Positions 16,257-63,909 of a stretch of 64,000 bases of DNA are shown here, in pieces (position 1 is the stretch's first letter; each line of letters starts with the position of its first letter). Made by a program: the position numbers and the translations under genes. Below the pieces are notes generated by a model. That model worked only from the letters and a program-made list of their open reading frames with translations, searched no databases and was not told the origin of the DNA. Origin of the DNA: Siphonodentalium dalli (Eukaryota > Mollusca > Scaphopoda > Gadilida > Siphonodentaliidae); the NCBI GenBank assembly GCA_032622095.1, contig CP136063.1:41204106-41268105 (forward strand). The letters are read 5' to 3'.

Positions 16257-16296
16257 AAAAGTAAAACCGTCCTAAATACAGATCTAGCAAGTTTAA

Positions 16297-16542
16297 CCCT
16301 TTGAGTGCCAAGTCGATTTTTGTATCAACCCATACACCCTGTGCCAATGCGTTCTCTTATATATGCGAGTCGACCATAGGTAGCCTCGCATATATAAGAG
16401 AATGCATTGGCCTAACATTTTTTTTTTTTTTTTTTTTTTTTTTACAATTTTTTACAATTTTAATAATTTATTCTTATATTCTTTAACATACTTATTTTGT
16501 AGGTTTAGGGCCGATGAGATCGGCCCCCTGGCACTCAAAGGG
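16297..16542. mobile_element. piggyBac-like MITE, family A, copy 2
   Basis: 246 bp with TTAA on both sides (16293-16296, 16543-16546), CCCTTTGAGTGCC ends and the same internal palindrome. It has a longer T-run than copies 1 and 3. Confidence 0.9.
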
Positions 16543-16608
16543 TTAAGTTATATAACATGATTTTCCAACACTTTAGTCACGTTACAGCTTTGAATACATA
16601 TATTCTAC

Positions 16609-17135
16609 CTGGATGTCTATGTTCTCCAGATTTTGGCCCTTAAATTTTGATGTCAAATTCTGTGCTTGAATCAAAAACAACTTCGTTATGTAGGTTCTTT
16701 CAACTGTGTTCGACATTGATCTGTAGGATTGTTTATGGACCCTTTGAGTATGTCCTAAATGCTTGCATACCCACTCCAACTGATACTCATCTAGATTCAT
16801 CATCTGTAGGATTGTTTATGGACCCTTTGAGTATGTCCTAAATGCTTGCATACCCACTCCAACTCATACTCATCTAGATTCATCATCTGTAGGATTGTTT
16901 ATGGACCCTTTGAGTATGTCCTAAATGCTTGCATACCCACTCCAACTCATACTCATCTAGATTCATCATCTGTAGGATTGTTTATGGACCCTTTGAGTAT
17001 GTCCTAAATGCTTGCATACCCACTCCAACTCATACTCATCTAGATTCATCATCTGTAGGATTGTTTATGGACCCTTTGAGTATGTCCTAAATGCTTGCAT
17101 ACCCACTCCAACTCATACTCATCTAGATTCATCAT
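16609..17135 (-). CDS. Exon resembling the catalytic end of a Crypton-type tyrosine recombinase, with five tandem 83-bp copies of its 5' part
   Basis: The acceptor is AATATTTACAG (ending 17136). The unit repeated at 83-bp spacing from 17135 down to 16721 reads LDEYELEWVCKHLGHTQRVH. Only the last copy continues into YRSMSNTVERTYITKLFLIQ and KFKGQNLENIDIQ before a GTAGAA donor (16608). HLGHT...Y is the box II His-region expected of a tyrosine recombinase, and the downstream GK..E(I/V)D stretch is typical of the Crypton-like metazoan family (from memory). Because 83 is not a multiple of three, the extra copies destroy the frame unless splicing skips them. It is probably a pseudo-exon. Confidence 0.5.
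16721..17135 (-). repeat. 83-bp tandem array derived from exon sequence, five copies
   Basis: Unit starts at 16721, 16804, 16887, 16970 and 17053, near-identical. Each unit on the minus strand begins right after an AG and ends CCTACAG, recreating an acceptor-like junction. Confidence 0.9.
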
Positions 17136-17174
17136 CTGTAAATATTCAAGTTGTACAAATTAAACACGAGTTAA

Positions 17175-17407
17175 CCCTTTGAGTGCAAGGTCGATTTTTG
17201 TATGAACCCATATACCCTGTGCCAATGCATTCTCTTATATATGCGAGTCGACCATAGGTCGCCTCGCATATATAACAGAATGCATTGGCCTAACAATTTT
17301 TTTTTTTTTTTTTTTTTTTACAATTTTAATAATTTATCCTTATATACTTTAACAGACTTATTTTGTAGGTTTAGGGCCGATGAGATCGGCCCCTGGCACT
17401 CAAAGGG
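17175..17407. mobile_element. piggyBac-like MITE, family A, copy 3
   Basis: 233 bp flanked by TTAA (17171-17174, 17408-17411), with CCCTTTGAGTGC ends and the internal palindrome. It lies just upstream of the recombinase-like exon at 17135 on that exon's strand. Confidence 0.9.
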
Positions 17408-17643
17408 TTAAATACCCAAAAGTCAAAAGATGAGTAAGTTTTAATTACAATGGACATGTTTTTATGATTGATGTCTCCTCAGTGGGCAATATGAGTGTAC
17501 AAGGAATGAAAGTATCAATGACATTTAAGCTTAATTTGGGGTTAATAAAGCAATTCTGAGCATATGTTTAACAGATCATTATGTTACGCACCATGGCAAT
17601 AGGTTCGGATACGTCTTCGGTCGTCTCAGCCTTTTCTTCACAC

Positions 17644-18949: not shown

Positions 18950-19690
18950 AATGGCACAGGGTTTTCCCCGGCCGCATTACGTATTCCTACACTAACACAA
19001 CTTCTATGGTATGTTTGACATGATTAGTGGAAAATAGAGAACCGAAGTAGTGACAACCAATCAGAGAGCCGCTTACATCAGCATGCACAAGTCTAAATGA
19101 ACCGACGTAAACAGACGGAACCCAGCGGAAATTACCGAAGTGTTACTTTTCTTGGTTCCGTTTACGGAGCACCGCGAGTTATATTAATTTAACTTCATTG
19201 TGCGATCGGCGAGAATTGGATTTTTCCAGGGTTTTCAAGGAGGGGTTGAAAATTACAGGGTTTTCAAGGGTCCTTGCAAACTCATTTTCTAATTCCAGGG
19301 TTTTCAAGGATTTTCATGGATTCGTGCGTTTCAAATTTTTATACCAAACGTATCACGCTTGCTTTTTATTTGTGCCAAGTTATGTGTGAACTAGACAAGG
19401 AACGTCTCAATTCCTCAAATCTTTTTAGTTTGATCGCAGACAATTTTGTAAACTAATATCTGATTGGTTAGTCAGTGCAAAGCAACCAATCAGGATCAAT
19501 TTAGTATAGCGTGTTTGGACTAGCGATTGCTTTGCATAATTATACAAGTGTAATTCGTGAAAATTCGGTAATTTCCGTTAGCGAAACTGGGGTTTCCCCT
19601 CTTTGGTAGATTTGAATGAAAACTTATACGATTTTGCGTAGTTGACCGAATGTCGACGCGATCAAAACTGTGTGTATATCGATTCGTATA
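18950..19690. other. Gene-less stretch with CAGGGTTTTCAAGG repeats
   Basis: CAGGGTTTTCAAGG-like words recur at about 19227-19311. They may be the subterminal region of the transposon that carried the pseudogene at 17852-18909. No gene is seen. Confidence 0.35.
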
Positions 19691-21455: not shown

Positions 21456-22190
21456 TCAAGTTAAATGAATATTCGTTAACCTTGAAGCCAATGTCTTCTC
21501 AGAAAAGCTGAGTGAGTCCATTATCTCGCAATTATTATCATTATCATGAATCACATTTTCTTCAAAATCTCTGGCAGTCATTTCTTCTACCTCTGCAATT
21601 CTACGCCAATTGAAGATGACGATGCGGATCAGAATATGATATGCCAGCTGTGTCCACTCTTTTGATGTTGGCTGGTCTAATTTCATTAAGGAGTGCATAC
21701 CACAATTTAACCAATTCTTGAATATAATTAAATCATTGGTTACAGGAAGCAACTTTGGTTTGTTTATATGCCGCAGTTTAACTCTACGGTTTGCAACACA
21801 GGACACGCAGTTGTTCCAATGAGTTTTATATAAATACTCGAAATCTTTGCCATTCTCCACCATATCCTTGTCTTGTTGAATAATACCTGTGCTTACTTTC
21901 AAAAGATAGCATTGTTTCATATAGTGACCCAATACTAAAGCCAATGTTGGTGTATCATATTCAACGGAAATACTGATTACACCTTTTTTCACACCCTTAA
22001 AGTTTGGTCCAGTTAACCATTGATTCAGACTTTTGCCAGTATTTCCTTTGTTGAGATGAAATAGAAGACGGCCAACTGTTCGTACCTTTGTACGAAGATT
22101 GCACATATCTTTTCTACGTTGTTCTTGTTTCGTCCCAAGGCGATCGGCCAAACTTCAAGCAAATTCTTTTATCAGACTATCGTCTAAGCA
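21456..22190 (-). pseudogene. Crypton-like recombinase N-terminal domain pseudogene
   Basis: It reads CLDDSLIKEFA, an in-frame TGA (near 22153), then SLADRLG...RTKVRTVGRLL. Next come PTLALVLGHYMKQC, NKPKLLPVTNDLI, an IFNWRRIAEVEEM segment and SLSFSEKTLASRL. Helical 'K.R..GRLL', '(S)LAL.LGH', 'LLP...D' and 'FN.RR..EVE' blocks in this order characterise the N-terminal and first catalytic (Arg) part of an intron-bearing tyrosine-recombinase-like family of invertebrates (from memory). It is homologous in order of blocks to 37452-38172. The in-frame stop indicates a dead copy. Confidence 0.5.
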
Positions 22191-24606: not shown

Positions 24607-26170
24607 TTCAGATTGTACGGTTCTCCAATTTGTCCGCATCAGCCAGTTTGTCGAGCAACGTTTGATGTATTCCCTTTCGCTTTCTCGTGGAAAATTGAAA
24701 TATCTTGTGAGGATGTACAGTTCTCCAATTTGTCCGCATCAGCCAGTTTGTCGAGCAACGTTTGATGTATTCCCTTTCGCTTTCTCGTGGAAAATTGAAA
24801 TATCTTGTGAGGATGTACGGTTTTCCAATTTGTCCGCATCAGCCAGTTTGTCGAGCAACATTTGATGTATTCCCTTTCGCTTTCTCGTGGAAAATTGAAA
24901 TATCTTGTGAGGATGTACAGTTCTCCAATTTGTCCGCATCAGCCAGTTTGTCGAGCAACGTTTGATGTATTCCCTTTCGCTTTCTCGTGGAACATTGAAA
25001 TATCTTGTGAGGATGTACGGTTTTCCAATTTGTCCGCATCAGCCAGTTTGTCGAGCAACATTTGATGTATTCCCTTTCGCTTTCTCGTGGAACATTGAAA
25101 TATCTTGTAGAAAATTGAAATATCTTGTGACGATGTACGGTTCTCCAATTTGTCCGCATCAGCCAGTTTGTCGAGCAACGTTTGATGTATTCCCTTTCGC
25201 TTTCTCGTGGAAAATTGAAATATCTTGTGAGGATGTACGGTTCTCCAATTTGTCCACATCAGCCAATTTGTCGAGCAACGTTTGATGTATTCCCTTTCGC
25301 TTTCTCGTGGAAAATTGAAATATCTTGTGAGGATGTACGGTTCTCCAATTTGTCCGCATCAGCCAGTTTGTCGAGCAACGTTTGATGTATTCCCTTTCGC
25401 TTTCTCGTGGAACATTGAAATATCTTGTGAGGATGTACGGTTTTCCAATTTGTCCGCATCAGCCAGTTTGTCGAGCAACATTTGATGTATTCCCTTTCGC
25501 TTTCTCGTGGAACATTGAAATATCTTGTGAGGATGTACGGTTTTCCAATTTGTCCGCATCAGCCAGTTTGTCGAGCAACGTTTGATGTATTCCCTTTCGC
25601 TTTCTCGTGGAAAATTGAAATATCTTGTGAGGATGTACGGTTCTCCAATTTGTCCGCATCAGCCAGTTTGTCGAGCAACGTTTGATGTATTCCCTTTCGC
25701 TTTCTCGTGGAAAATTGAAATATCTTGTGAGGATGTACGGTTCTCCAATTTGTCCGCATCAGCCAGTTTGTCGAGCAACGTTTGATGTATTCCCTTTCGC
25801 TTTCTCGTGGAAAATTGAAATATCTTGTGAGGATGTACGGTTCTCCAATTTGTCCGCATCAGCCAGTTTGTCGAGCAACGTTTGATGTATTCCCTTTCGC
25901 TTTCTCGTGGAAAATTGAAATATCTTGTGAGGATGTACGGTTTTCCAATTTGTCCGCATCAGCCAGTTTGTCGAGCAACATTTGATGTATTCCCTTTCGC
26001 TTTCTCGTGGAAAATTGAAATATCTTGTGAGGATGTACAGTTCTCCAATTTGTCCGCATCAGCCAGTTTGTCGAGCAACGTTTGATGTATTCCCTTTCGC
26101 TTTCTCGTGGAACATTGAAATATCTTGTGAGGATGTACGGTTTTCCAATTTGTCCGCATCAGCCAGTTTG
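24607..26170 (+). repeat. 100-bp satellite array, left block (about 15.6 units)
   Basis: Head-to-tail 100-bp units (one of 120 bp near 25081-25200) contain CCGCATCAGCCAGTTTGTCG, CTTTCGCTTTCTCG and GAAATATCTTGTGAGGATG. Variant sites (CGTTTG/CATTTG, GGAAAATT/GGAACATT, TTCTCC/TTTTCC) form a pattern repeated in the right block. The many 66-67 residue frames on both strands arise from periodicity and are not genes. Confidence 0.95.
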
Positions 26171-29100
26171 TAGAGCTGAAACGGTTGACCCATTCTTCTA
26201 ACCGGTTAACCATCGGGGTTAACCGGATTTCAACCGGTTAACCGCTAATTTATAGTGGACTTCTCTGTGACTTAATTATGTCGACATTTGCCGTGCTCCA
26301 GGGACAGACCTAGGTGAGAAATAGCAGCTGAAATAAAGACCTTATTCACGGCATTTAACGATATTAAAAAACACGCATTCACTGTTCTTTTGCTGGCTCT
26401 CGTGATGGGGAATGAGCAAGTGAAATGTGTGAATGGCAGGGGATGGTTATTTGCAATTGCCGCCATTTGCCGGTGATCAGCATGTTTGGGCATCTGTAAA
26501 ACGAGTAACAATAGTATGGGTAATTGGGTATTGGTAAAACGAGTAACAAAACTATACATTAACGATCTGTAATATATAATTACCATCATTGGTATATCCT
26601 CCAATGATTTAATAAAAACTGAAACGCAATAACTCATACATGTAGCTATAGCACTAAAATGAAGGTCAGTTAGGTAATGCAGTCCTATTCAGTAGGCCTA
26701 ATACTATTCGTCGGAATCACTATCATCATGGTCGCGGATATTAACTCTGAATTTCTCCCCCTTTCGAAGAAACTCGCGAATGAAGATCAAACTGTCTACA
26801 GTGTCGGGGTCCAAACTCGCCCGTTTTTTCGATACGATGTTTCCGGCTGCCGAAAAAATCCGCTCTGACGGCACAGACGTGCCTGGAATACCTAGGTACT
26901 TTCTCGCGAGCGCTGCCACGGGGGAATCGATCAGAGTTCATTTTCCACCAGAACGTTGGCTTAACTTTCGGCGATATCCGCGATCCAATGTAGGCTTTCA
27001 ACTCAAATGAAACATCGTCCCCCTCTGTCTCATGTGATAAACCAATGTCATAGAAGTCGCCCAACAAGTACTTCATGGCTTCGTTGGTGGCTTCTACTTT
27101 TGACTTTTTTATTTTCGGTGCGAATTCGCGCACAGTCACGTCGGGTCCCGACAATAAACTAGTAGACGTAGATGTACCCGGAACGACTTCCGACACTTCC
27201 ATATCGGTACATTTAGTGGGCGATTTGCCAGAAGAACTTTGACATGCCTGACTGGTCTCGCTCTCTGAAGCACTATCTGCAGTAGGCCTATCTGGTTTCG
27301 ATTTACCAGATTCTGTTTTCTCCTTTTCGACCAATATACTAAGCACACATTCGCAAACTTCGTCTCTCTGTTCCTCGTTTAAGAAGGAAAGACTCTTGTA
27401 ACGAGGATCCAAAAATGCTGCTATCACCAATTGGTTCTTACCAGGTTTGCCCAGTGGATAACGCTTTCTCAGATCAGAAGCCACAGTCTTTTTGAACTCT
27501 TTCAAAACTTTGATGTCACCGGTATTCTCTTTGAGATGGTTTGCTAACAAGCCGCATACCATAGGGTAGATCGTGCTGAGTGTAGGAAACTCATCCGAAC
27601 ACAGAATTTCAGTGGCCATCTGAAGCGGTTTGAGGGTGGGTGTGATGGCCTCCATCGTGCGCCAGATATCGTCACTGAGCTCCAAGATGCGCGCGTCAGA
27701 ATCTTTGGTTATATTCTGATCAAGGATAACAGCAAGCACTGGTAGTCTTTGCTCTAGGAGTCTCTGGAACATTACGAATGTGGAGTTCCACCGAGTGGAC
27801 ACATCCTGCAGCAAACTGTGCTCGGGCGAATTCAACTTTTTCTGTGTTTCTTTCAAAGCGTTATTTGCAACATTCGATTTGTTGAAATGGGTAACAAGGC
27901 GTCTAGCACCTCCACTCGCACGCGAAATGGCGGGAAGTCCGAGTCCAATATTTACGCTCAGCTGGAGCGTGTGTCCAAAACACCGAATATGTGGGGTATC
28001 TCCCAAGTCCATCTCACGAACAGCAGCCACAATATTCGAACAATTGTCTGACGTAATACCCGATACCTTGTCCGTGATGCGAAATTCGTCTAGAATCAAT
28101 CTGATTTCTTTTGCCAAATTGGAGGATGTATGTCGCTCTTTCACTTCCCGGGTACACAGGACGAAATTGTGAATTTCCCAGTCTTCACCGACGTAGTGCA
28201 CTGTCACGGTGATGTAAGCTTCAGTTGCACAACTCGTCCAGCAATCAGTTGTAATAGCCAGATAATCATTCTTGCTCAATTCTTTAAGGAAACGCGCTTT
28301 CATTTCCGTATAATTCAGCTTAAGATATTTCTTTATTGTGGTGTGACAGGGAACTGTGTATGTCTCGTTCAGTTGTCCTATGAATTTGCGAAATCCCGAC
28401 CCATTAACTATGCACAAAGGTCTCATATCCATAGCGCACCACTCAACCAAAGCTCCCGTGATAGCGTTCCATTTCGATTTTGACATGGGTTTGGGTACGT
28501 GGAAACCCAGAGTGGTTTGCTTCTTTCGTAGAGATTTACTCGGTCCGGGTTCATCGGAACATTTCTGTGAAATCCCGCTTCTGTAACTAGCATCAGGATC
28601 AACTGGCTGATTTGGCTCTGGTGTGTTCACACTCACGAAGATGTGTTTCTTCTTTAAATGAGAAGCCATGTTCGACGTGGACCCAGAGTAGACAAATCTA
28701 TACTGACAAATTTTGCATTCCGCAAACTTTTTTTTCTTTGCATTGTCTTCTACCAATCGGAAATTCGCCCACACTTCTGATTTACGCGATTCCATTTAGA
28801 TAATAGCCGTCTTGAAGCGTCTTCCCTTCTCAAAATTCAACACGAAATAATACCTGATGGGTGTCTATCAGATGACAGACTCACTGATTCAGTGACGTCA
28901 TTGCTTTGAACTATCCCGCCTTGATACACAGTGACTGCACACGTGCTCTTGTCGGAAGATCAGAGAAAACTTCAAAGGGCCGGAATTGATTGAAGGTCGC
29001 CGACACTTGCAGACAGTTCGAGAATTGCTACTAAGTATCTGATACTACTGCGTGTACCAATTAATGCTTGCATTGCACTCTACTATCGGTGACACAGGGT

Positions 29101-29270
29101 TTGGTATTAGTTTTGCATCATTTAACCTAATATTTTCAATTATTTTGAGGATTATTCACGTTCACATTCAACTGATAACGGGATGCGGTTTCGTCCGGTT
29201 CATTTTTTTCTAACCGGTTACATCGCTAACCGGATGCTAACCGGTTAACCGTCTAACCGTTTCAGCTCTA
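26171..29270 (-). mobile_element. Nearly intact hAT transposon inserted in the satellite array
   Basis: 3,100 bp flanked by the 8-bp duplication CCAGTTTG (26163-26170, 29271-29278), a word present in each array unit. Terminal inverted repeats start TAGAGCTGAAACGGTT and fit the hAT YARNG rule. Both subterminal regions carry several ACCGGTTAACC-type motifs in both orientations, probably transposase binding sites (inference). It encodes one BED-finger transposase. Confidence 0.95.
26704..28795 (-). pseudogene. hAT (ZBED-type) transposase, single frameshift near the C-terminus
   Basis: From ATG 28795 the main frame gives 684 residues. A BED zinc finger (Cys27, Cys30, His46, His51; W9) binds DNA. 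The RNase H-like core has Asp184 in ITTDCWTS and Asp250 in GITSDNCSN, followed by HIRCFGHTLQLSV and DVSTRWNSTFVM. The hATC dimerisation region starts at FWWKMNSDRFP, where one extra base in a five-base C run (G5 on the plus strand, 26922-26926) shifts the frame. The correct continuation, AALARKYLGIPGTSVPSERI...SLIFIREFL, runs in another frame to 26704. Length and blocks match ZBED1-like hAT transposases. The lesion may be real or a homopolymer sequencing error. Confidence 0.9.
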
Positions 29271-30340
29271 CCAGTTTGTCGAGCAACATTTGATGTATTC
29301 CCTTTCGCTTTCTCGTGGAACATTGAAATATCTTGTGAGGATGTACGGTTTTCCAATTTGTCCGCATCAGCCAGTTTGTCGAGCAACGTTTGATGTATTC
29401 CCTTTCGCTTTCTCGTAGAAAATTGAAATATCTTGTGACGATGTACGGTTCTCCAATTTGTCCGCATCAGCCAGTTTGTCGAGCAACGTTTGATGTATTC
29501 CCTTTCGCTTTCTCGTGGAAAATTGAAATATCTTGTGAGGATGTACGGTTCTCCAATTTGTCCACATCAGCCAGTTTGTCGAGCAACGTTTGATGTATTC
29601 CCTTTCGCTTTCTCGTGGAAAATTGAAATATCTTGTGAGGATGTACGGTTCTCCAATTTGTCCGCATCAGCCAGTTTGTCGAGCAACGTTTGATGTATTC
29701 CCTTTCGCTTTCTCGTGGAACATTGAAATATCTTGTGAGGATGTACGGTTTTCCAATTTGTCCGCATCAGCCAGTTTGTCGAGCAACATTTGATGTATTC
29801 CCTTTCGCTTTCTCGTGGAACATTGAAATATCTTGTGAGGATGTACGGTTTTCCAATTTGTCCGCATCAGCCAGTTTGTCGAGCAACGTTTGATGTATTC
29901 CCTTTCGCTTTCTCGTGGAAAATTGAAATATCTTGTGAGGATGTACGGTTCTCCAATTTGTCCGCATCAGCCAGTTTGTCGAGCAACGTTTGATGTATTC
30001 CCTTTCGCTTTCTCGTGGAAAATTGAAATATCTTGTGAGGATGTACGGTTCTCCAATTTGTCCGCATCAGCCAGTTTGTCGAGCAACGTTTGATGTATTC
30101 CCTTTCGCTTTCTCGTGGAACATTGAAATATCTTGTGAGGATGTACGGTTTTCCAATTTGTCCGCATCAGCCAGTTTGTCGAGCAACATTTGATGTATTC
30201 CCTTTCGCTTTCTCGTGGAAAATTGAAATATCTTGTGAGGATGTACGGTTCTCCAATTTGTCCGCATCAGCCAGTTTGTTGAGCAACGTTTGATGTATTC
30301 CCTTCGCTTTCTCGCGGAAAATTGAAATATCTTGTGAGGA
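29271..30340 (+). repeat. 100-bp satellite array, right block (about 10.7 units)
   Basis: Continuation of the array at 24607-26170 beyond the hAT insertion. From about 29400 the order of unit variants (GTAGAAAATTG, GACGATG, GTCCACATC, then the CATTTG/GGAACATT series) matches that of the left block from about 25090, indicating a block duplication of about 0.7-0.8 kb. The last unit (30290-30340) is degenerate. Confidence 0.95.
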
Positions 30341-30344
30341 TATT

Positions 30345-31323
30345 TCCAACGCATACACCACAATATGCCAAATACTCAACAAATTATTAATCAACGTGTT
30401 CAGTATAGGCATTATATCCAATTAGATTTAAAGTGTATACATTTACAGTGCAATGCAAAAAAAAAAATGCATGTAAAAATGCAAAAAAAAATTAAAATAT
30501 TTAGTCGGGATGTAAAATATTTTACTAAATAATACTAAATTAAAATTACAACTTTGTATTTGACAAATCCTTGTAGAAACCCACATCTAGCAGGTAGCCC
30601 TTACAAGCCCTTCAGCTCTGCGGATATGTGTTTGCTGCTACATGTATCAACATTAGCGAATTATACTTAATCATATAATTCGCTGCTACAAGTAAATGGG
30701 TGTATAAACGGAAATACATAATCCCACAATGGCCATCTGTCATTAAAGCCAATCACTAATCAACGTGCATAGTATCTTAACACATGTGTACCAAGCAGGA
30801 CCTTCGGTAATCCAGAGATGTTTTTTCCACAATTATAGCCACTTAATATAGACACTTCGTTAATAAGGGTGAGATAATGTTATCACGTAAGAAACTATGG
30901 ACATTGATTAACTGGATTTAATGGCACCCTTATGTCGCGTACTGATTATGAAACACTGTGCGGTCACGAGAGTCGGAACATCTTTTAAGCTGCGTGTGTA
31001 CGCGAATTCGAAGAAAAAAAGGAAAAATAATATGTAAAAAATTGTTCTGTATTTTTTTTTATTTTGTTTGATAGATTACAAATTAATGAGGGGTTATGGG
31101 GAGGGCCATTCGGCCCTGCCGACAATCCCGGGTTAGCCACCCGAAATACATAAACACAATTCGAAGATGAGATATTGTTTATGAACGGCTTTGGTTCGCA
31201 TTCATAGTGCATTGTCTGTACAAGATTGTTGTCTTATCACCAAGCCACCCTTGACAGCTGTTGAAGTACTTTTTACTAGTCATGTCGGCTTGTGTTTATA
31301 TGAGCCAAAAGCTCTATCATAAA
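30345..31323. other. No supported gene
   Basis: AT-rich sequence with A-runs. Nothing convincing is seen. Confidence 0.35.
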
Positions 31324-31863
31324 GTGTTTCCTACACCGTATGCATATATAGTGTTTCCTACACCGTATGCATATATAGTGTTTCCTACACCGTATGCATA
31401 TATAGTGTTTCCTACACCGTATGCATATATAGTGTTTCCTACACCGTATGCATATATAGTGTTTCCTACACCGTATGCATATATAGTGTTTCCTACACCG
31501 TATGCATATATAGTGTTTCCTACACCGTATGCATATATAGCGTTTCCTACACCGTATGCATATATAGCGTTTCCTACACCGTATGCATATATAGTGTTTC
31601 CTACACCGTATGCATATATAGTGTTTCCTACACCGTATGCATATATAGTGTTTCCTACACCGTATGCATATATAGTGTTTCCGACACCGTATGCATATAT
31701 AGTGTTTCCTACACCGTATGCATATATAGTGTTTCCTACACCGTATGCATATATAGTGTTTCCTACACCGTATGCATATATAGTGTTTCCTGCACCGTAT
31801 GCATATATAGTGTTTCCTGCACCGTATGCATATATAGTGTTTCCTGCACCGTATGCATATATA
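31324..31863 (+). repeat. 27-bp minisatellite, 20 copies
   Basis: Twenty units of 27 bp (GTGTTTCCTACACCGTATGC plus ATATATA). Because 27 is a multiple of three, both strands stay open: VFPTPYAYI on plus and GNTIYAYGV on minus, in frames of about 216 residues. Variants are few (GTG/GCG, CCTAC/CCTGC). I regard it as a young non-coding minisatellite. Confidence 0.95.
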
Positions 31864-31942
31864 GCTAATTTCCGATTGTGTTTGACCTGCACTTTTAACT
31901 CGCTGCTGTAAATACTGTTACTGTCGCCTTTGCAATAGTTAA

Positions 31943-36091: not shown

Positions 36092-37451
36092 CCAGCAACT
36101 GAGAAATACACCCAGATATGTCAATCAGATTACCCCTCTTTTATGTTAATAAAAAATTTCATACTCAGTCTGGTCGGGAGTACAACTGCAGGCAGACATA
36201 CTATTCTTAAGTTGATAAAAGGCTATAAAGTTTGAAAGATATTCATTTGGTGGGTAAGGGGGGTGGTGTCCCCCTCCTAATTGTGGGGGTCTGCACGGGA
36301 AAGTTTTGAAATTCTGATGCACTGAGAGCGTGCGTACATAAATCAGCCTTAAAAATATTTCACCTCACAAGTATATCTGCAGTAAAACACGAACAAGAAC
36401 TAGTGAGGTCAATTCTGTTGTTTAGCAATTTGCGGGGTGTACCTCGGAAGTAATACCAGGAAGCGATTTTTTAAAAGAGAGTCCATTTCAGTGTTGGGTG
36501 TGAAACCGGTTTTTCGCATGCAGCTCAGAAGTATCATAATTACGTATATGCACACACACAATTGTTATTTGTTCCCAAAAGTAATTTACAAACTTTCAGA
36601 CAACTGGGGGAGAATGGTCAGACTTGTGACATGAATTTCTCAAATTCTGTGTTTAGCATTAGTGTCGGGCACAGTGTGCACCTCACAAGTAAGCGAACCA
36701 TAAGACCCTGAAAATTCTACTTTTTCACTTAAATATGATGATCAGAACAGAAATGCCTGACTAAAATTAACTGCTGATGTAAGGAATGTCATCTGACTTT
36801 CCAATACCATCCTAGTGAGCACTGAACTCTTTCTCTAGAGGAATGCGACTGAGTTAAATGAATTGTGGACAGACTTCTGTGCACTTGATGGCAATAGCTT
36901 TGCTTGACTTTGTCAAAATAAGCTAAAAACAAAATTCTAATAAAAATAAAAATAATCCAAACTCATTTTTGTGAGTTCTTTATTTTTTTTGGTTTCCGGA
37001 TATCAACTGGAAACCCCAAAAAAAACAAAAGAACTCACAAAAATGAGAGAAAAGTCCAAAAACTCCCTACTCCCATAAGTGGGTAAAAATCATCGGAATA
37101 AACCCAAATTCAGAATTGACCTGCATTTTTAACATAACTAAGCCACAAAAATTCAAACTCAAGTAATTATCAGGAAACCACACAATTTTTGTTTTTTTTT
37201 CTTAGTAAAAAAGTCACATACATGTAACTCTGGTCAAAATCATACATTTGACATTGACCTGCAGGTCTTGAAATTAGGGAAAATGTCCCATGGCAAATTT
37301 AATGCTGTGGCATGTTATAATCCACATGTTGCCATGGCATTTCCCACAGCATTGCTTATTGTCGTGGCCAATTTCGAGGACTGGACCTGTATAACAATTT
37401 AACCACAAATGCAATAAATTAAATAATCTCATGAAAATAACTCAGTCTTAC
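36092..37451. other. Gene-less stretch with repeat ends and a palindrome
   Basis: Near 36890-36930 there is a terminus of the TAGCTCAACTT family (GACTTTGTCAAAATAAGCTA). Position 36960-37048 is a hairpin with arms TTTTTGTGAGTTCTTT. The remainder has no gene signal. Confidence 0.4.
36960..37048. repeat. Inverted repeat with arms of about 37 bp
   Basis: The arms contain TTTTTGTGAGTTCTTT and GGTTTCC and are separated by GGATATCAACT. They could form a cruciform. Confidence 0.75.
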
Positions 37452-38172
37452 CTGCTTCCCTCCATTTCTCCTGTCCTTCGCCTGTTGTACGTCAACAATC
37501 GACTGCATGTTACTTCAGCAACCTTGATGTAATTTTCTTTAGTCAACAAATTCAGATCCAATGTTTTCATTTCCTCCTTTAGAAACGATTGCAACTTAGT
37601 AATGTCCTCCTGTTTCGGTAGAGGTTTTGTGTTGTAAAAATGTCGATGCTCTAGTATAACTTTCGCTCTTTTTGTCACTTTTGTCTTCCAGAAAATCTGC
37701 TTTAATTTCTGTACCTCCTCAGCTTCTGTTCTGTTTTGAACTTTCTTCTCTTTTTTCATTTCTTGTATTGCTAACCCAATTTTTATATCTGTCATCATTT
37801 GTATATTATAGCCTAATTTAACAGCATTGATTGGGTTTTTCAAGTCCTCGGCACTGGGATTTGTCGCTAAGATTGTAGCCTCAAAATGATCAGGTTTGAA
37901 ATAAGCCGACATGGTCTGAACACCACTCAAAGGCTTGATCTTCCGAAGGTTAATCAACAGGCGTGCATTTAGGCGCATTATATCACTAGTATACTTTCCA
38001 CGTTTCAGGGGATTGCCTACATTTTTGTCGAGCCACATATTCCCCAATGCAGTTATGAGTTCATCCTCCCTGGCAACAAGGCCAATTTTATCACTTCTCA
38101 TTATAGTATATACTTCATTTTTGAGAAGTTTTGATGCTCTATGATGAATTCTTCCCGCATTGGCATCAGATA
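37452..38172 (-). CDS. Exon of a Crypton-like gene: N-terminal recombinase domain
   Basis: Reads DANAGRIHHRASKLLKNEVY, SDKIGLVAREDELITALGNM and RLNARLLINLRKIKPLSG. These are followed by NAVKLGYNIQMM, HFYNTKPLPKQEDI and SRLLTYNRRRTGEMEGS, then a consensus donor at 37451 (CAG|GTAAGA). Block order matches the pseudogene at 21456-22190. The NRRRTGE Arg is the likely first catalytic residue of the tyrosine recombinase (inference). The remaining catalytic boxes must be encoded by exons further left and were not found adjacent. Confidence 0.5.
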
Positions 38173-38256
38173 GTAAATTTAAATGTGAACTGCTTTGCTT
38201 CTAATCTGGTTTTTTAGGACAATTTTGTTGATGTTTCCAGAGCAGTTTCTTTTTAA

Positions 38257-38590
38257 CCCTTTGAGTGCCAGGGGCCGATCTCATCGGCCCGATCTCATCG
38301 GCCCTAATTTACGGTGTGTAAAATCGGCCCTAAAAAAAAAAAAAAGTTAAAAAAAAATAATAATAATTCTTTTGGGTTGAATTTTTTTGGGTATGCTTAA
38401 GCATGCTATAGTGAATTTAAAAACAAACTGGATAAAACCTTAGGGGCATGTTATAACTCAAAACTATCACCACGTATTCATAGTAATAATTTTGATGCCA
38501 ATGAAAAATGTAAGATTCCCTGGCACTAAACCTATGCATTGGCACAGGGTATATGGGTTGATACAAAAATCGGACCTGGCACTCAAAGGG
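38257..38590. mobile_element. piggyBac-like MITE, family A, copy 5, in an intron
   Basis: 334 bp flanked by TTAA (38253-38256, 38591-38594), reverse orientation. The core is replaced by about 200 bp of unrelated AT-rich sequence and the palindrome is reduced to ATGCATTGGCACAGGG. It sits between two exons of the Crypton-like gene. Confidence 0.9.
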
Positions 38591-38620
38591 TTAAGCCAGA
38601 CAAAGCAGAAATAGTCTTAT

Positions 38621-38732
38621 GTCAAGGTAATCTGTTGTCAAGGTAATCTGTTGTCAAGGTAATCTGTTGTCAAGGTAATCTGTTGTCGAGGTAATCTGTT
38701 GTCAAGGTAATCTGTTGTCAAGGTAATCTGTT
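38621..38732 (+). repeat. 16-bp tandem repeat, seven copies
   Basis: GTCAAGGTAATCTGTT x 7 (one GTCGAGG variant), at the boundary of the exon at 38740-39090. Confidence 0.95.
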
Positions 38733-38739
38733 GGCCTCC

Positions 38740-39090
38740 TTTCCTTCCCTCGTTGGATTGCCCTCATATTATGCTTGTGATTGAACTTTGCTCGCATAAG
38801 ACTTATGAGAGTTTTCCTCTTTTTTGAATCACTTGTCTCTGCAATCTCTTTGACTTCACCACAATTATGTTTTCTGAAGATGTGCTGAGAAAAGTTAGAT
38901 ACTGTCATAGGTATTGGGCAAAGTTCACAACTCATTTTGCCTGTCCTAGTTGTTTTTGATTGCTCTGTTTTTCTTACATAGATATCTCTGAAAGTCTGGT
39001 CACGAAGTATTTGATCCTGATAGCATTCTATCGCCATATTCCTCATCTTCTGAATCTGGAACTATCTCATCATCAAATATAGTTTTCCCT
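38740..39090 (-). pseudogene. Crypton-like gene segment: acidic patch and zinc finger, frame-broken
   Basis: One frame gives DDEIVPDSEDEEYGDRMLSG and then a stop near 39013. The frame one base away gives DIYVRKTEQSK, a zinc finger CELCPIPMTVSNFSQHIFRK followed by HN, and RAKFNHKHNMRAIQRGKERR. Acidic patch, CxxC...HxxxxH finger and F.HN...L..GK..RRP are the usual N-terminal order in the family. A single extra base accounts for the break. Confidence 0.45.
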
Positions 39091-39094
39091 CTAA

Positions 39095-39433
39095 CCCTTT
39101 ACCCAACAGAAGGGCCCTGTGCCAATGCATTCTCTTATATATGCGAGTCGACCATAGGTCACCTCACATATATAAGAGAATGCATTGGCTTAACACATTA
39201 AAAATTATAAAATTGTTAAAGAATGTAAGAAAAAATGGTAAAAAGTGTTAAAAAAAGATTTGTTTTTAGGCCAATGCATTCTCTTATATATAAGAGAATG
39301 CATTGGCACAGGGCATAACTGTAACTATCACAATGTGGTCAAGGAGCCGGTTCCAATGATATCCATATGTGTATGGTTCTATTGATATTTTAGGCTGTTG
39401 AAGCTTTATCTGGCCGGTTTGTTGGGTAAAGGG
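39095..39433. mobile_element. piggyBac-like MITE, family B, interrupting a coding exon
   Basis: 339 bp with CCCTTTACCCAACA ends, flanked by CTAA (39091-39094) and CTAG (39434-39437), a decayed TTAA-like duplication. It has two partial palindromes with TGCCAATGCATTC cores. Removing it with one 4-bp duplicate keeps the frame between the flanking exon halves (…MLVL / EGKTIFDD…). Confidence 0.8.
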
Positions 39434-39437
39434 CTAG

Positions 39438-39852
39438 AACAAGCATCGAAACTCTATTGTTTTGATGACTTTGACGATGTGAGAAATCTGCTTCTTCAGA
39501 TGAGCTATCGCTACTAGATTCATTTATTTGCTGAGAGTCCAAGCATGTTGTGTCAACTATTTTATCTTTCTGCACATGGGCCAAATCAGTATCCATTTTG
39601 TCATCACAAATTGCTTCTTCAGAGGAATATCCACTGCTTGGGTTATACTCAGAACCACTTGACTCAAACACATCACTGTCAAGAGATAAATTATCATGAC
39701 TGGCATTATCAGAAAGCGATTCCACAGAATTAACTGGAATCTCTTCTATTAGTTGATCCACGACATCCATTGCCATTGGCTCTTTTATCATTTCTGTTTC
39801 CCTTGACTGTGTTGATTGGGACTCTATATTCATCTCCATTGAATTACACACC
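39438..39852 (-). CDS. N-terminal acidic exon of the Crypton-like gene
   Basis: After an acceptor-like TTTGTTAG this reads a Ser/Asp/Glu-rich stretch (SLDSDVFESSGSEYNPSSGY, SSSDSSSEEADFSH) and runs into the MITE at 39433. Low complexity is typical of the disordered N-terminus of such proteins. Function unknown. The gene is probably inactive because of the frame break downstream. Confidence 0.45.
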
Positions 39853-50389: not shown

Positions 50390-51432
50390 AATAAAATTAA
50401 GTGGTTATCATTAGCAAAGTTGCCTACTCCAAGTCGTCCTCTTTTGTATTCATAAAAATAAAATTTACAAAGAAAATACAAAGAAAGTACAATTGCGCTT
50501 TCCAACCTTGCAACTGTTTCAAGACAACAATGAATGACTCAGACTGATTGTTTGTGATGCCAGAGAGAGTCGTACACTTTATGTGGACGGAGCAACCAGG
50601 CACCAGCGCCTCGTTTGATGTCGCTTTTCATATTTATATCAAAATAAGATTTAACTGACTGTGTCCAATTAGAAGTGAGGTCTTCGTACCTCTTCTCAAA
50701 ATCATCCTCAGAATTTGCCTTCAACAAAGATATCAAGTCCTGCTTATAAATGGCAATTTCGTCTACATTAGCCTTGAGTTCAGTTTGTAAATATCGATGG
50801 AGATCCCTTTTGAGATGGTTCCAGCAGAAAAAAATGGGCATACTTGGAAAGATTGTGCTCACAGCATTCGAGAAGGCGTCCTCTCGATAAAAAACTATGG
50901 GGATTCGACTTTGAAACTTTGCAAGGTTTGGGATCTTTTCCCTCACCGCCTCGAAAAGACGAGTATGTGGCTTTTGATATTTCCGCTCGTGGATGAGAAA
51001 CGCCAGTGGAAAAACAGGAGAACCTTCAAACAAAATATTTCGAATGACAAGAGATGAAACGTAGAAGTCACCAACGTTGAATGTTGTGTCATAACCGAGA
51101 ACGAATCGGCGAGAATCCTGGTCAATTTCGAGAAGATCATTTACCTCATTGGACCATTCTGGGTAATGAATAATGACATACAGATCGTTGTCAAGGTAGC
51201 AAACTTCAGGTAAATGCTTCAACTGATGTGCCATTTGCAAAATGTCCCTGATGGGATCTTTAGACCTTGTGCCCGCAACTACATGCGCCTTTGAATTCCG
51301 TACCTGTTTCGTATTTCTTGGATTGAGGACACCGTTATGATCTGGCTGAATATTATGATCTGACACGAGGCGTTGGTATATGGTATGGGGGTTGGATTCA
51401 GAAGATGTCACAGCTTCTCTGATAGAATGCAA
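50390..51432 (-). pseudogene. MULE-like transposase remnant
   Basis: The main frame reads LGYDTTFNVGDFYVSSLVIR, then PVFPLAFLIHERK, RIPIVFYREDAFSNAV and PIFFCWNHLKRDLHRYL. It breaks at a CTCTCTC run near 50565 and continues in other frames with SGITNNQSESFIVVLKQLQ and IVLSLYFLCKFYFYEYKRG. The D...D pair with a C..H helix (CWNH) is the MULE/Mutator DDE arrangement. ITNN.(S/A)E.FN matches the block containing the third acidic residue. Frameshifts in simple-sequence runs show decay. Its upstream edge is fused to P-like sequence at about 51435. Confidence 0.7.
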
Positions 51433-51439
51433 TGCATTG

Positions 51440-51620
51440 TATGCAATTTATTGTATGCATAGGATCTTGTATTACTGCTAATGGCTTATTTGAATTGAAG
51501 GCATTGCGTGTGATAAAATTGCTGTCTTTTGGATCTCCTGGAAATAATAAATGCATGCACGCTCGATTTGTGGACGCGCCATCAAACATGATATAATTAA
51601 CATTAAATGCGATGAACAAT
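51440..51620 (-). pseudogene. Partial second copy of the P-like transposase block
   Basis: Reads NVNYIMFDGASTNRACMHLL and ITRNAFNSNKPLAVIQDPMH, nearly the same as 52330-52500 with about 10% differences. It may be the scar of a tandem duplication or a second element. Confidence 0.65.
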
Positions 51621-51808: not shown

Positions 51809-53141
51809 TTAGTGTTTAAACCGTGCCTGACACCGCGCTGTTGACAAAAGTGATTCTCTTACTATATCACTGTTGAAGTTTGCCGGAACAATACTGTCGT
51901 CTCCGTTCAGGACAAGCCTGAACAGAGCAATGGTTCCTTTGATGGTCGAACATGTCTTGTCTGGTTTCGTCTGAGAACAATTTTTATTTGGACTATAAAT
52001 TTCATTTTCAATGACAATGTTCTCCCATGATTCGTTCATCATTTGCTGATGTGATTGGCCTAGAGTCGGTAAAGAAAATTATTAGTTTGGACGTAGCTTC
52101 GAAATTGTTGAGGACAGTTTTTCCGGTTTTTCAAGAGATTCTGAGTAGCCTTTCATGAGATACAGCATATTGAAATCTAACACATCAATGGCCAGTTTAT
52201 TTCTCATTTTTGTAGACGGGGTTAATAATAGCAGATTCCCACTGATCCCAGACAACAGCTTTGCCATGTAGAATCAAATATTTGCCATTACATGATTTGT
52301 TCTTCTGCCTGCTATGTTCGATATTATTCATAATCTTTTTGATTGTGTGCATAGGATCTTTTATGACTGCTAATGTCTTATTTGACTTGAAGGCATTGCG
52401 TGTGATAAAATTGCAGTCTCTTGGCTCTCCTGGAAATAACAAATGCATGCACGATCGATTTATCGACGCGCCATCAAACATTATATAATTTACATTAAAT
52501 TGGTAGTCGTCACAAGCGTGACGTAGCGTCGATGATGTCCAAAATTATGTTTACTAATTGGAACGCTGTTGCAGTTGAGGTACCATAATACGCCACAGGC
52601 CACCTGAACCCTTCATTCCCCTTAAAGATGACCTGTAGCCATTACTACCTTCTGCCCGTTTTGGATATAATTCACCATGTTGTTAATGGAAGCAACGTCT
52701 GTCGCCCCGACGATCCTATACTGCAGATTGTCTTGGATGGCCATCTCATCTAACACCAAACCCCCACACACGCCAGATTTGGATATGTTTTTCTTTTTCG
52801 CTTCCGATGCCATCCATTTAATATTGTCATGGTTGATGCCTGGCATCTGCTTGATGGAATTTTTATAATACGACAGGAGACGTTGGGACGGGAGGATGAA
52901 GCACCCGCTATCTTGGATCTCCCGATAAGTGTTTGGAGACTGTTGGTATATTGCCAAACAAACGCTTATCAATCTTGGATTCCAACGCCTCCCTCGTGGA
53001 TCCTTTGTGTTGGTGTTTCTTAGTTGATCCCTAATGAACATTTTTAACCCCTCCGGTATTTGTTGTTCTAAAATTTTATTCGCAATGACTCGGAGGTCGG
53101 TGTCGTCCTCTTCCTTGAGTGGTAACGTATATTCTGAACGC
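51809..53141 (-). pseudogene. P-element/THAP9-like transposase pseudogene
   Basis: It starts after the acceptor TTTATCCACAG. It reads RWNPRLISVCLAIYQQSPNT, LPSQRLLSYYKNSI, GLVLDEMAIQDNLQYR and, after a frame change near 52625, FRWPVAYYGTSTATAFQLVN. Then come YIMFDGASINRSCMHLLFPG, LAVIKDPMHTIKK, NGKYLILHGKAVVWDQWESA, KLAIDVLDFNMLYLMKGY and a C-terminal piece to 51809. Block order and motifs (LDEM, AYYGT, FDGAS.NR, DP.H..K) match P-element-type transposases. At least three frame breaks are present. The N-terminal THAP finger was not found. Confidence 0.7.
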
Positions 53142-53179
53142 TGTGGATAAATGAATAATACAATCATTTAAATTATAGA

Positions 53180-62949: not shown

Positions 62950-63909
62950 TTATGTCCAGAGCAGTCTACCTTGCGGCAGTTTACAAAATGTCAGGATAGG
63001 AGTAACAAAAATATAGAATATACGTCTAGACTCCCTTGGATTAACTGATCTATCAGCAACTTCCTCCTTTACAGTAACACTAAGGAGTTTGAACCTCACA
63101 GTATCAAAAAGAACATTTAAACTTGGTTTCAGATTTTTTACCTTGGAAATAAGCTCATTCAAAACATGGCCCCGATGAAGCCTGAATTTGATGTCCCTGC
63201 ATTCACGAACCTCATCGTCGAATAACGCAGATTGCAGGAGTTCAGATAACGGATCATTTACAGTTGGTGTAATCTCTTCTGCAGATGAAAAGCTGTGGTG
63301 GTCAAGATCCATGCTGATATCCAATTCAGCACTGCAGTCAAGATCATCTGTTTTGTCATCGTGTTGCTTGCAGTCAAGATCATCTGTTTTGTCATCGTGT
63401 TGCTTGCAGTCAAGATCATCTGTTTTGTCATCGTGTTGCTTGCAGTCAAGATCATCTGTTTTGTCATCGTGTTGCTTGCAGTCAAGATCATCTGTTTTGT
63501 CATCGTGTTGCTTGCAGTCAAGATCATCTGTTTTGTCATCGTGTTGCTTGCAGTCAAGATCATCTGTTTTGTCATCGTGTTGCTTGCAGTCAGGATCATC
63601 TGTTTTGTCATCAGGTTGCTTGCTGTCAAGATCCTCTGTTTTGTCATCAGGTTGCTTGCTGTCAAGATCCTCTGTTTTGTCATCAGGTTGCTTGCTATCA
63701 AGATCCTCTGTTTTGTCATCGGGTTGCTTGCTGTCAAGATCCTCCTCATCGTGTTGCTCTTCAACTGCATTTTGACTGCTTAAGTAGAATGTCAGAATTC
63801 CAATTTTATACAGCTGGTAACAATCTGCTACTGTAACGTCATTTGGAACTCTCTGTTCCTTAGGCCACACAAAGTTAATTTCCTGTTTCTCAAAGGATTT
63901 TTTTTTCAA
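62950..63909 (-). CDS. Exon of an acidic-repeat protein of unknown function
   Basis: An open frame without a convincing ATG (so an internal exon or partial gene). The N-terminal part reads WPKEQRVPNDVTVADCYQLY. Then come about eleven copies of a 12-residue acidic repeat (DLDCKQHDDKTD), and a C-terminal part with CRDIKFRLHRGHVLNELISK and LFDTVRFKLLSVTV. The RLHRGHVL segment resembles a region N-terminal to HECT-like domains in invertebrate uncharacterised proteins (weak, from memory). A donor-like T|GTAAAG lies near 63075. It may continue to the PHD exon. Confidence 0.5.
   Translation of the reverse strand: MKKKSFEKQEINFVWPKEQRVPNDVTVADCYQLYKIGILTFYLSSQNAVEEQHDEEDLDSKQPDDKTEDLDSKQPDDKTEDLDSKQPDDKTEDLDSKQPDDKTDDPDCKQHDDKTDDLDCKQHDDKTDDLDCKQHDDKTDDLDCKQHDDKTDDLDCKQHDDKTDDLDCKQHDDKTDDLDCKQHDDKTDDLDCSAELDISMDLDHHSFSSAEEITPTVNDPLSELLQSALFDDEVRECRDIKFRLHRGHVLNELISKVKNLKPSLNVLFDTVRFKLLSVTVKEEVADRSVNPRESRRIFYIFVTPILTFCKLPQGRLLWT
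63337..63744 (-). repeat. 36-bp in-frame minisatellite, about 11 copies
   Basis: Unit GTCAAGATCATCTGTTTTGT plus 16 more bases (plus strand), with a right-hand variant subset (GGTTGCTTGCTG). Unit length keeps all frames open, so the frames on the plus strand are shadows. Confidence 0.95.

Follow-up and report, generated by a model that had tools for sequence, protein, structure and literature searches.

A five-copy 83-bp minisatellite at a putative splice acceptor of a recombinase-like gene copy in Siphonodentalium dalli

Why should a tandem array begin at just the nucleotide where an intron appears to end? The question is raised by a short minus-strand segment within 64,000 nucleotides of DNA from the scaphopod Siphonodentalium dalli, the whole of which was analysed and is referred to here as the window. 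A first-pass annotation described positions 16609-17135, which correspond to the whole putative exon, as a satellite born from a recombinase exon, with five copies of a catalytic HLGHT box arrayed exactly from the splice acceptor. The reading favored here, to which we assign a probability of about 0.6, is that of a recent, exon-derived minisatellite that arose by duplication between two occurrences of the sequence TACAGAT and that resides in a probably non-functional copy of a recombinase-like gene.

TRF delimits one tandem array at 16719-17140 (period 83, 5.1 copies, 99% matches, no indels, score 837). In minus-strand orientation its five units start at 17135, 17052, 16969, 16886 and 16803. 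Unit 1 (17053-17135) adjoins the original intron end and is identical to units 2 (16970-17052), 3 (16887-16969) and 4 (16804-16886), while unit 5 (16721-16803) carries a single substitution, a Glu to Gln codon, and runs on into the remainder of the exon. The five 83-bp copies with their HLGHT box are thus as first described, and so is the AG/ATG that recurs at each junction (the slash marks the putative splice boundary): every unit opens with ATGATGAATC straight after TACAG, giving TACAG/ATGATG. Five whole units and the 7 bp of TACAGAT account exactly for the length of the array; TACAGAT is a direct repeat that forms both borders, with the outer copy (17134-17140, minus strand) at the putative intron/exon acceptor and the inner copy (16719-16725, minus strand) within the exon. 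No further copies of the unit are found elsewhere in the 64-kb window. Five local copies that span 422 bp make this a minisatellite, and the term "satellite" was too strong. Tandem arrays number 26 in the window when TRF rows are merged by hand, and together they cover 14% of it.

The putative unexpanded exon (16609-16803, minus strand, 195 nt) comprises 65 open codons, beginning MMNLDEYQLEWVCKHLGHTQRVHKQSYRSMSN..., and ends at a CAG/GTAGAA donor at 16609; from their agreement with consensus, its acceptor and donor are presumed to be in use. The proposal that the exon's remainder follows on the last copy only also holds: unit 5 alone extends into ATCAATGTCGAACAC... and the open frame as far as the donor. 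The unit is 83 nt long (3n+2), and the reading frame changes from each copy to the next. If any of the first four acceptors were the start, the LGH frame would encode MMNLDEYELEWVCKHLGHTQRVHKQSYR and then encounter TGA TGA stops at the next junction, each internal junction reading TAC AGA TGA TGA (Tyr-Arg-stop-stop) in this frame. An exon that began at acceptor 1 would be 527 nt long with stops in all three frames, and one from acceptor 5 would be 195 nt and open for its 65 codons. A unit length of 3n+2, Tyr-Arg-stop-stop at the junctions and a 527-nt exon with no open frame mean that the units do not form a coding repeat. In front of acceptors 2-5 stands the exon sequence CAAAGGGTCCATAAACAATCCTACAG in place of the original intron end, of which only TACAG was duplicated; judged by such context, the first acceptor is probably the better one. 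Were it used, translation in the LGH frame would end with the Tyr-Arg of copy 1, and the original frame would be kept only by use of the last acceptor.

Minisatellites can arise by microhomology-mediated duplication, followed by slippage. The array resembles such cases in having a short direct repeat at both borders, as is expected of microhomology-mediated tandem duplication, and in its near-identical copies; it is unlike them in general in that its border falls on a splice acceptor. The coincidence has a simple source, however, since the array starts exactly at the acceptor because TACAGAT is present both there and 83 bp inside the exon. As TACAGAT itself contains TACAG/AT, each new junction automatically rebuilds an acceptor-like sequence. 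The phase of the array is most likely explained by a single microhomology duplication, for which splicing itself is not needed. The initial observation of an array starting precisely at the acceptor is therefore correct insofar as the array does begin at a consensus acceptor, but the precision is owed to the 7-bp direct repeat and not to splicing. Among 200,000 simulated random duplications of 50-149 bp, placed outside the arrays of this window, only 0.084% had a shared flank of at least 7 bp.

The proposed sequence of events would start with a multi-copy animal gene family resembling tyrosine recombinases, one member of which had TACAGAT at a 3' splice site and again 83 bp into its LGH...Y exon. 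Duplication between the two 7-bp repeats, by microhomology end joining or replication template switching, would have copied the intervening 83 bp; slippage or unequal exchange could then have raised the copy number to five, with all later copies inheriting TACAG/ATGATG. The duplication mechanism is one that we infer. It should not be generalized to the other arrays: eight of the 26, chosen manually, exceed a whole number of units by 0, 17, 7, 6, 2, 49, 13 and 71 bp, so that short microhomology is no rule in the window and the explanation is limited to the 83-bp array. What the locus offers is a clean, young example of how a tandem array, rebuilding the acceptor at each junction, can grow from a short sequence that acceptor and exon have in common. 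No published array beginning at a splice acceptor was named in the titles and abstract openings that were searched, a collection in which few subscription journals are covered.

The identity of the gene is approached through its motifs. The exon contains LGH followed by a candidate nucleophile Tyr nine residues after the His (LGHTQRVHKQSY), a spacing found in 12 of 24 reference recombinases. Sequences of the form LGH-x8-Y occurred by chance 0.6 times per Markov window (60 windows, 31 of which contained at least one), and [LIVM]GH-x8-Y 1.1 times (150 windows); with about one expected per window by chance, LGH-x8-Y alone is weak evidence. Farther upstream in the gene sense lies an exon-like frame of 232 residues (21456-22154, minus strand) with the box I motif FNWRRIAEVEEMTARDF; its order and strand would place it in one gene with the LGH exon. 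A strict box I pattern, R-x-[SAG]-E-[LVIAM]-x-x-[LMI]-x3-D-[FILVW], is matched once in the window, by RIAEVEEMTARDF at 21602 on the minus strand, 4.5-4.8 kb upstream of the LGH exon. The pattern was devised with the frame already known and matches only 7 of the 24 reference recombinases. With the same post hoc pattern, box I appeared on average 0.007 times per Markov window (150 windows), and none of the 150 contained a box I with a box Y after it on the same strand at a distance of up to 6 kb.

A paralogous frame, recognized by BLASTP, occupies 37448-38200 on the minus strand and ends with TYNRRRTGEMEGSR at GCAG/GTAAGA. It shares 22% identity with the frame at 21456-22154 over 174 columns (E 1e-7 for this single comparison), and the residues N.RR..E.E are the same in both. 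Scored against a profile of the 24 reference recombinases, all of them bacterial, the LGH exon ranks first among the 1,582 window frames of at least 25 residues, but its E-value is 2.8 and that of the runner-up, located elsewhere, is 3.0; in the alignment LGH falls on LGH and Tyr on Tyr, with no gaps. Membership in the tyrosine recombinase family is likely but unproven, and the support for it is at the level of motifs. The region 37448-39851 (minus strand) appears as a second recombinase-like gene copy, in which an upstream finger-like frame, CELCPIPMTVSNFSQHIFRKH, has no Pfam match. On the 3' side of this finger-like frame is an array of seven 16-bp units (38620-38733), about 25 bp before the end of a TTAA-flanked element of the type described below.

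Homology searches with the recombinase-like frames returned nothing significant from Pfam or PHROGs, nor did the LGH exon match PDB sequences significantly. PF00589 gave no match at E-values up to 1 or up to 10, although above about 0.1 most matches are removed by HMMER's own filters. When the two paralogous frames were compared, profile to profile, with the reference set, the E-value was 0.095 and the probability 0.6%, and a segment preceding box I was aligned to box II, the wrong box. For a structural model of the upstream frame (21456-22154), Foldseek found nothing in PDB or BFVD at E 0.001, which says little at a model pLDDT of 54; the single-sequence model of the paralogue (37448-38200) was worse, at pLDDT 39. 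Between 17140 and 21456, no convincing frame with box II (H-x-x-R or LR..AT) was recognized by eye or with loose patterns, and a loose box II-type match, LRRSLSS at 19410, was judged to be chance. When viral contigs were scanned, the upstream frame gave 4 pattern matches, the LGH exon 9, the paralogue 6 and alignment A1 141, none of which was confirmed by tblastn. The box I DNA pattern had no matches; the corresponding LGH..VH...YR pattern hit one viral and 13 prokaryote stretches, and all 14 were dismissed by eye as chance, being short frames or lacking recombinase character. Peptide strings looked for in the literature were not found, which is weak evidence in that papers rarely print sequences.

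Crypton-derived recombinase genes are reported to occur in animals, and a published table includes a Crypton from the mollusc Lottia (PMC3212892). The locus resembles tyrosine recombinases and the Crypton-derived genes in its LGH-x8-Y box and the R-x-[SAG]-E box I upstream. It is unlike them in having no Pfam, PHROG or fold match and no recognised box II exon, and in that the putative gene is split by introns. A shrimp integrase-containing element (PMC3117699) was considered as a possible relative. The label of a recombinase box given to the exon is accordingly retained in part: a box I upstream on the same strand and shared with the paralogue speaks for it at the level of motifs, but LGH-x8-Y is itself at chance level and no family, profile or fold match is significant.

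These same data bear on the possibility that the array is a plain non-coding minisatellite, in which both the LGH-x8-Y box and the acceptor are coincidental. A box expected 0.6 times per random window and found in 31 of 60, searches that return no significant family, profile or fold match, and a window of which 14% is tandem array would all suit such an account. The box I motif on the same strand upstream, common to the paralogue, argues otherwise, as does the top rank of the LGH exon among the 1,582 frames, with LGH and Tyr correctly aligned, though its score is not significant; on balance we regard coincidence as unlikely, if deserving of some weight. Much less probable is an assembly artefact that inflated or collapsed the copy number. 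The four identical 83-bp units might raise that suspicion, yet unit 5 differs from them and the array, at 422 bp, is shorter than a long read.

The remaining alternatives accept the exon and concern the choice of acceptor. If the last acceptor were used, copies 1-4 would now be intron and the full protein would still be made, a form of intron growth for which there is precedent in the potato RdRp gene. There, an intron was gained by tandem duplication across an intron-exon boundary and RNA-seq reads confirm splicing of the new intron (PMC4974935). The scaphopod array is similar in that a short tandem duplication takes in the 3' splice site together with the first part of the exon that follows, with the acceptor duplicated; TACAG/ATG is present in each copy, and the last copy alone gives an open exon of 65 codons. 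It differs from the potato case in its five copies, in its putative splicing and in including only TACAG of the intron. The potato duplication took in a putative branch site and polypyrimidine tract (PMC4974935), whereas here CAAAGGGTCCATAAACAATCCTACAG, which is exon sequence, stands before acceptors 2-5. Intron growth is considered unlikely. A splicing switch can also be imagined, in which the first acceptor would yield a protein cut after the catalytic Tyr-Arg, the last would yield the full protein, and variable unit number would tune the ratio, but from the sequence we consider this exceedingly improbable. The array presents a natural test of how the spliceosome chooses among near-identical acceptors, only the first of which has the original intron end.

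Returning to the favored reading, of an exon-derived minisatellite made by TACAGAT duplication, the array is probably damaging to the gene, and this copy is probably decayed or non-functional because the array is out of frame and no box II exon is recognisable. As a gene story the locus is therefore minor. Five frames in the 4.3 kb between the array and the box I frame were scanned against Pfam, and none matched at the curated cut-off. Short inverted-repeat elements flanked by TTAA lie on both sides of the exon, one at 17171-17411 (plus strand), 30 bp from the outer TACAGAT, and a second copy in the same orientation on the opposite side, at 16293-16546; both have CCCTTTGAGTGCC-like ends. The idea of a composite, in which the two flanking elements had carried the exon, was set aside: the element recurs, whole or partial, at several further places in the window, and the flanking copies are unremarkable. 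About 70 bp from another copy of the TTAA element is an array of twenty 27-bp units (31319-31864) with frames open on both strands.

Several other features of the window may be recorded. A single 100-bp unit makes up two arrays (97% alike at best match), at 24614-26176 and 29271-30341, which share an orientation and bracket a 684-aa frame (26741-28795, minus strand) that matches a BED zinc finger (E 1.9e-9) and, below the curated cut-off, a hAT-like RNase H domain (E 0.0037); the region 24614-30341 may be a transposon that has a tandem array at each end. Two further matches on the minus strand, both below the curated cut-off, are to a MULE transposase (50539-51447, E 5.2e-5) and to the N-terminus of a TNP-like RNase H (52622-53167, E 0.001). 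A 345-aa frame with no Pfam match at E 0.01 holds an array at 63333-63741 (minus strand), in which eleven 36-bp units keep the frame and encode DDKTDDLDCKQH repeats.
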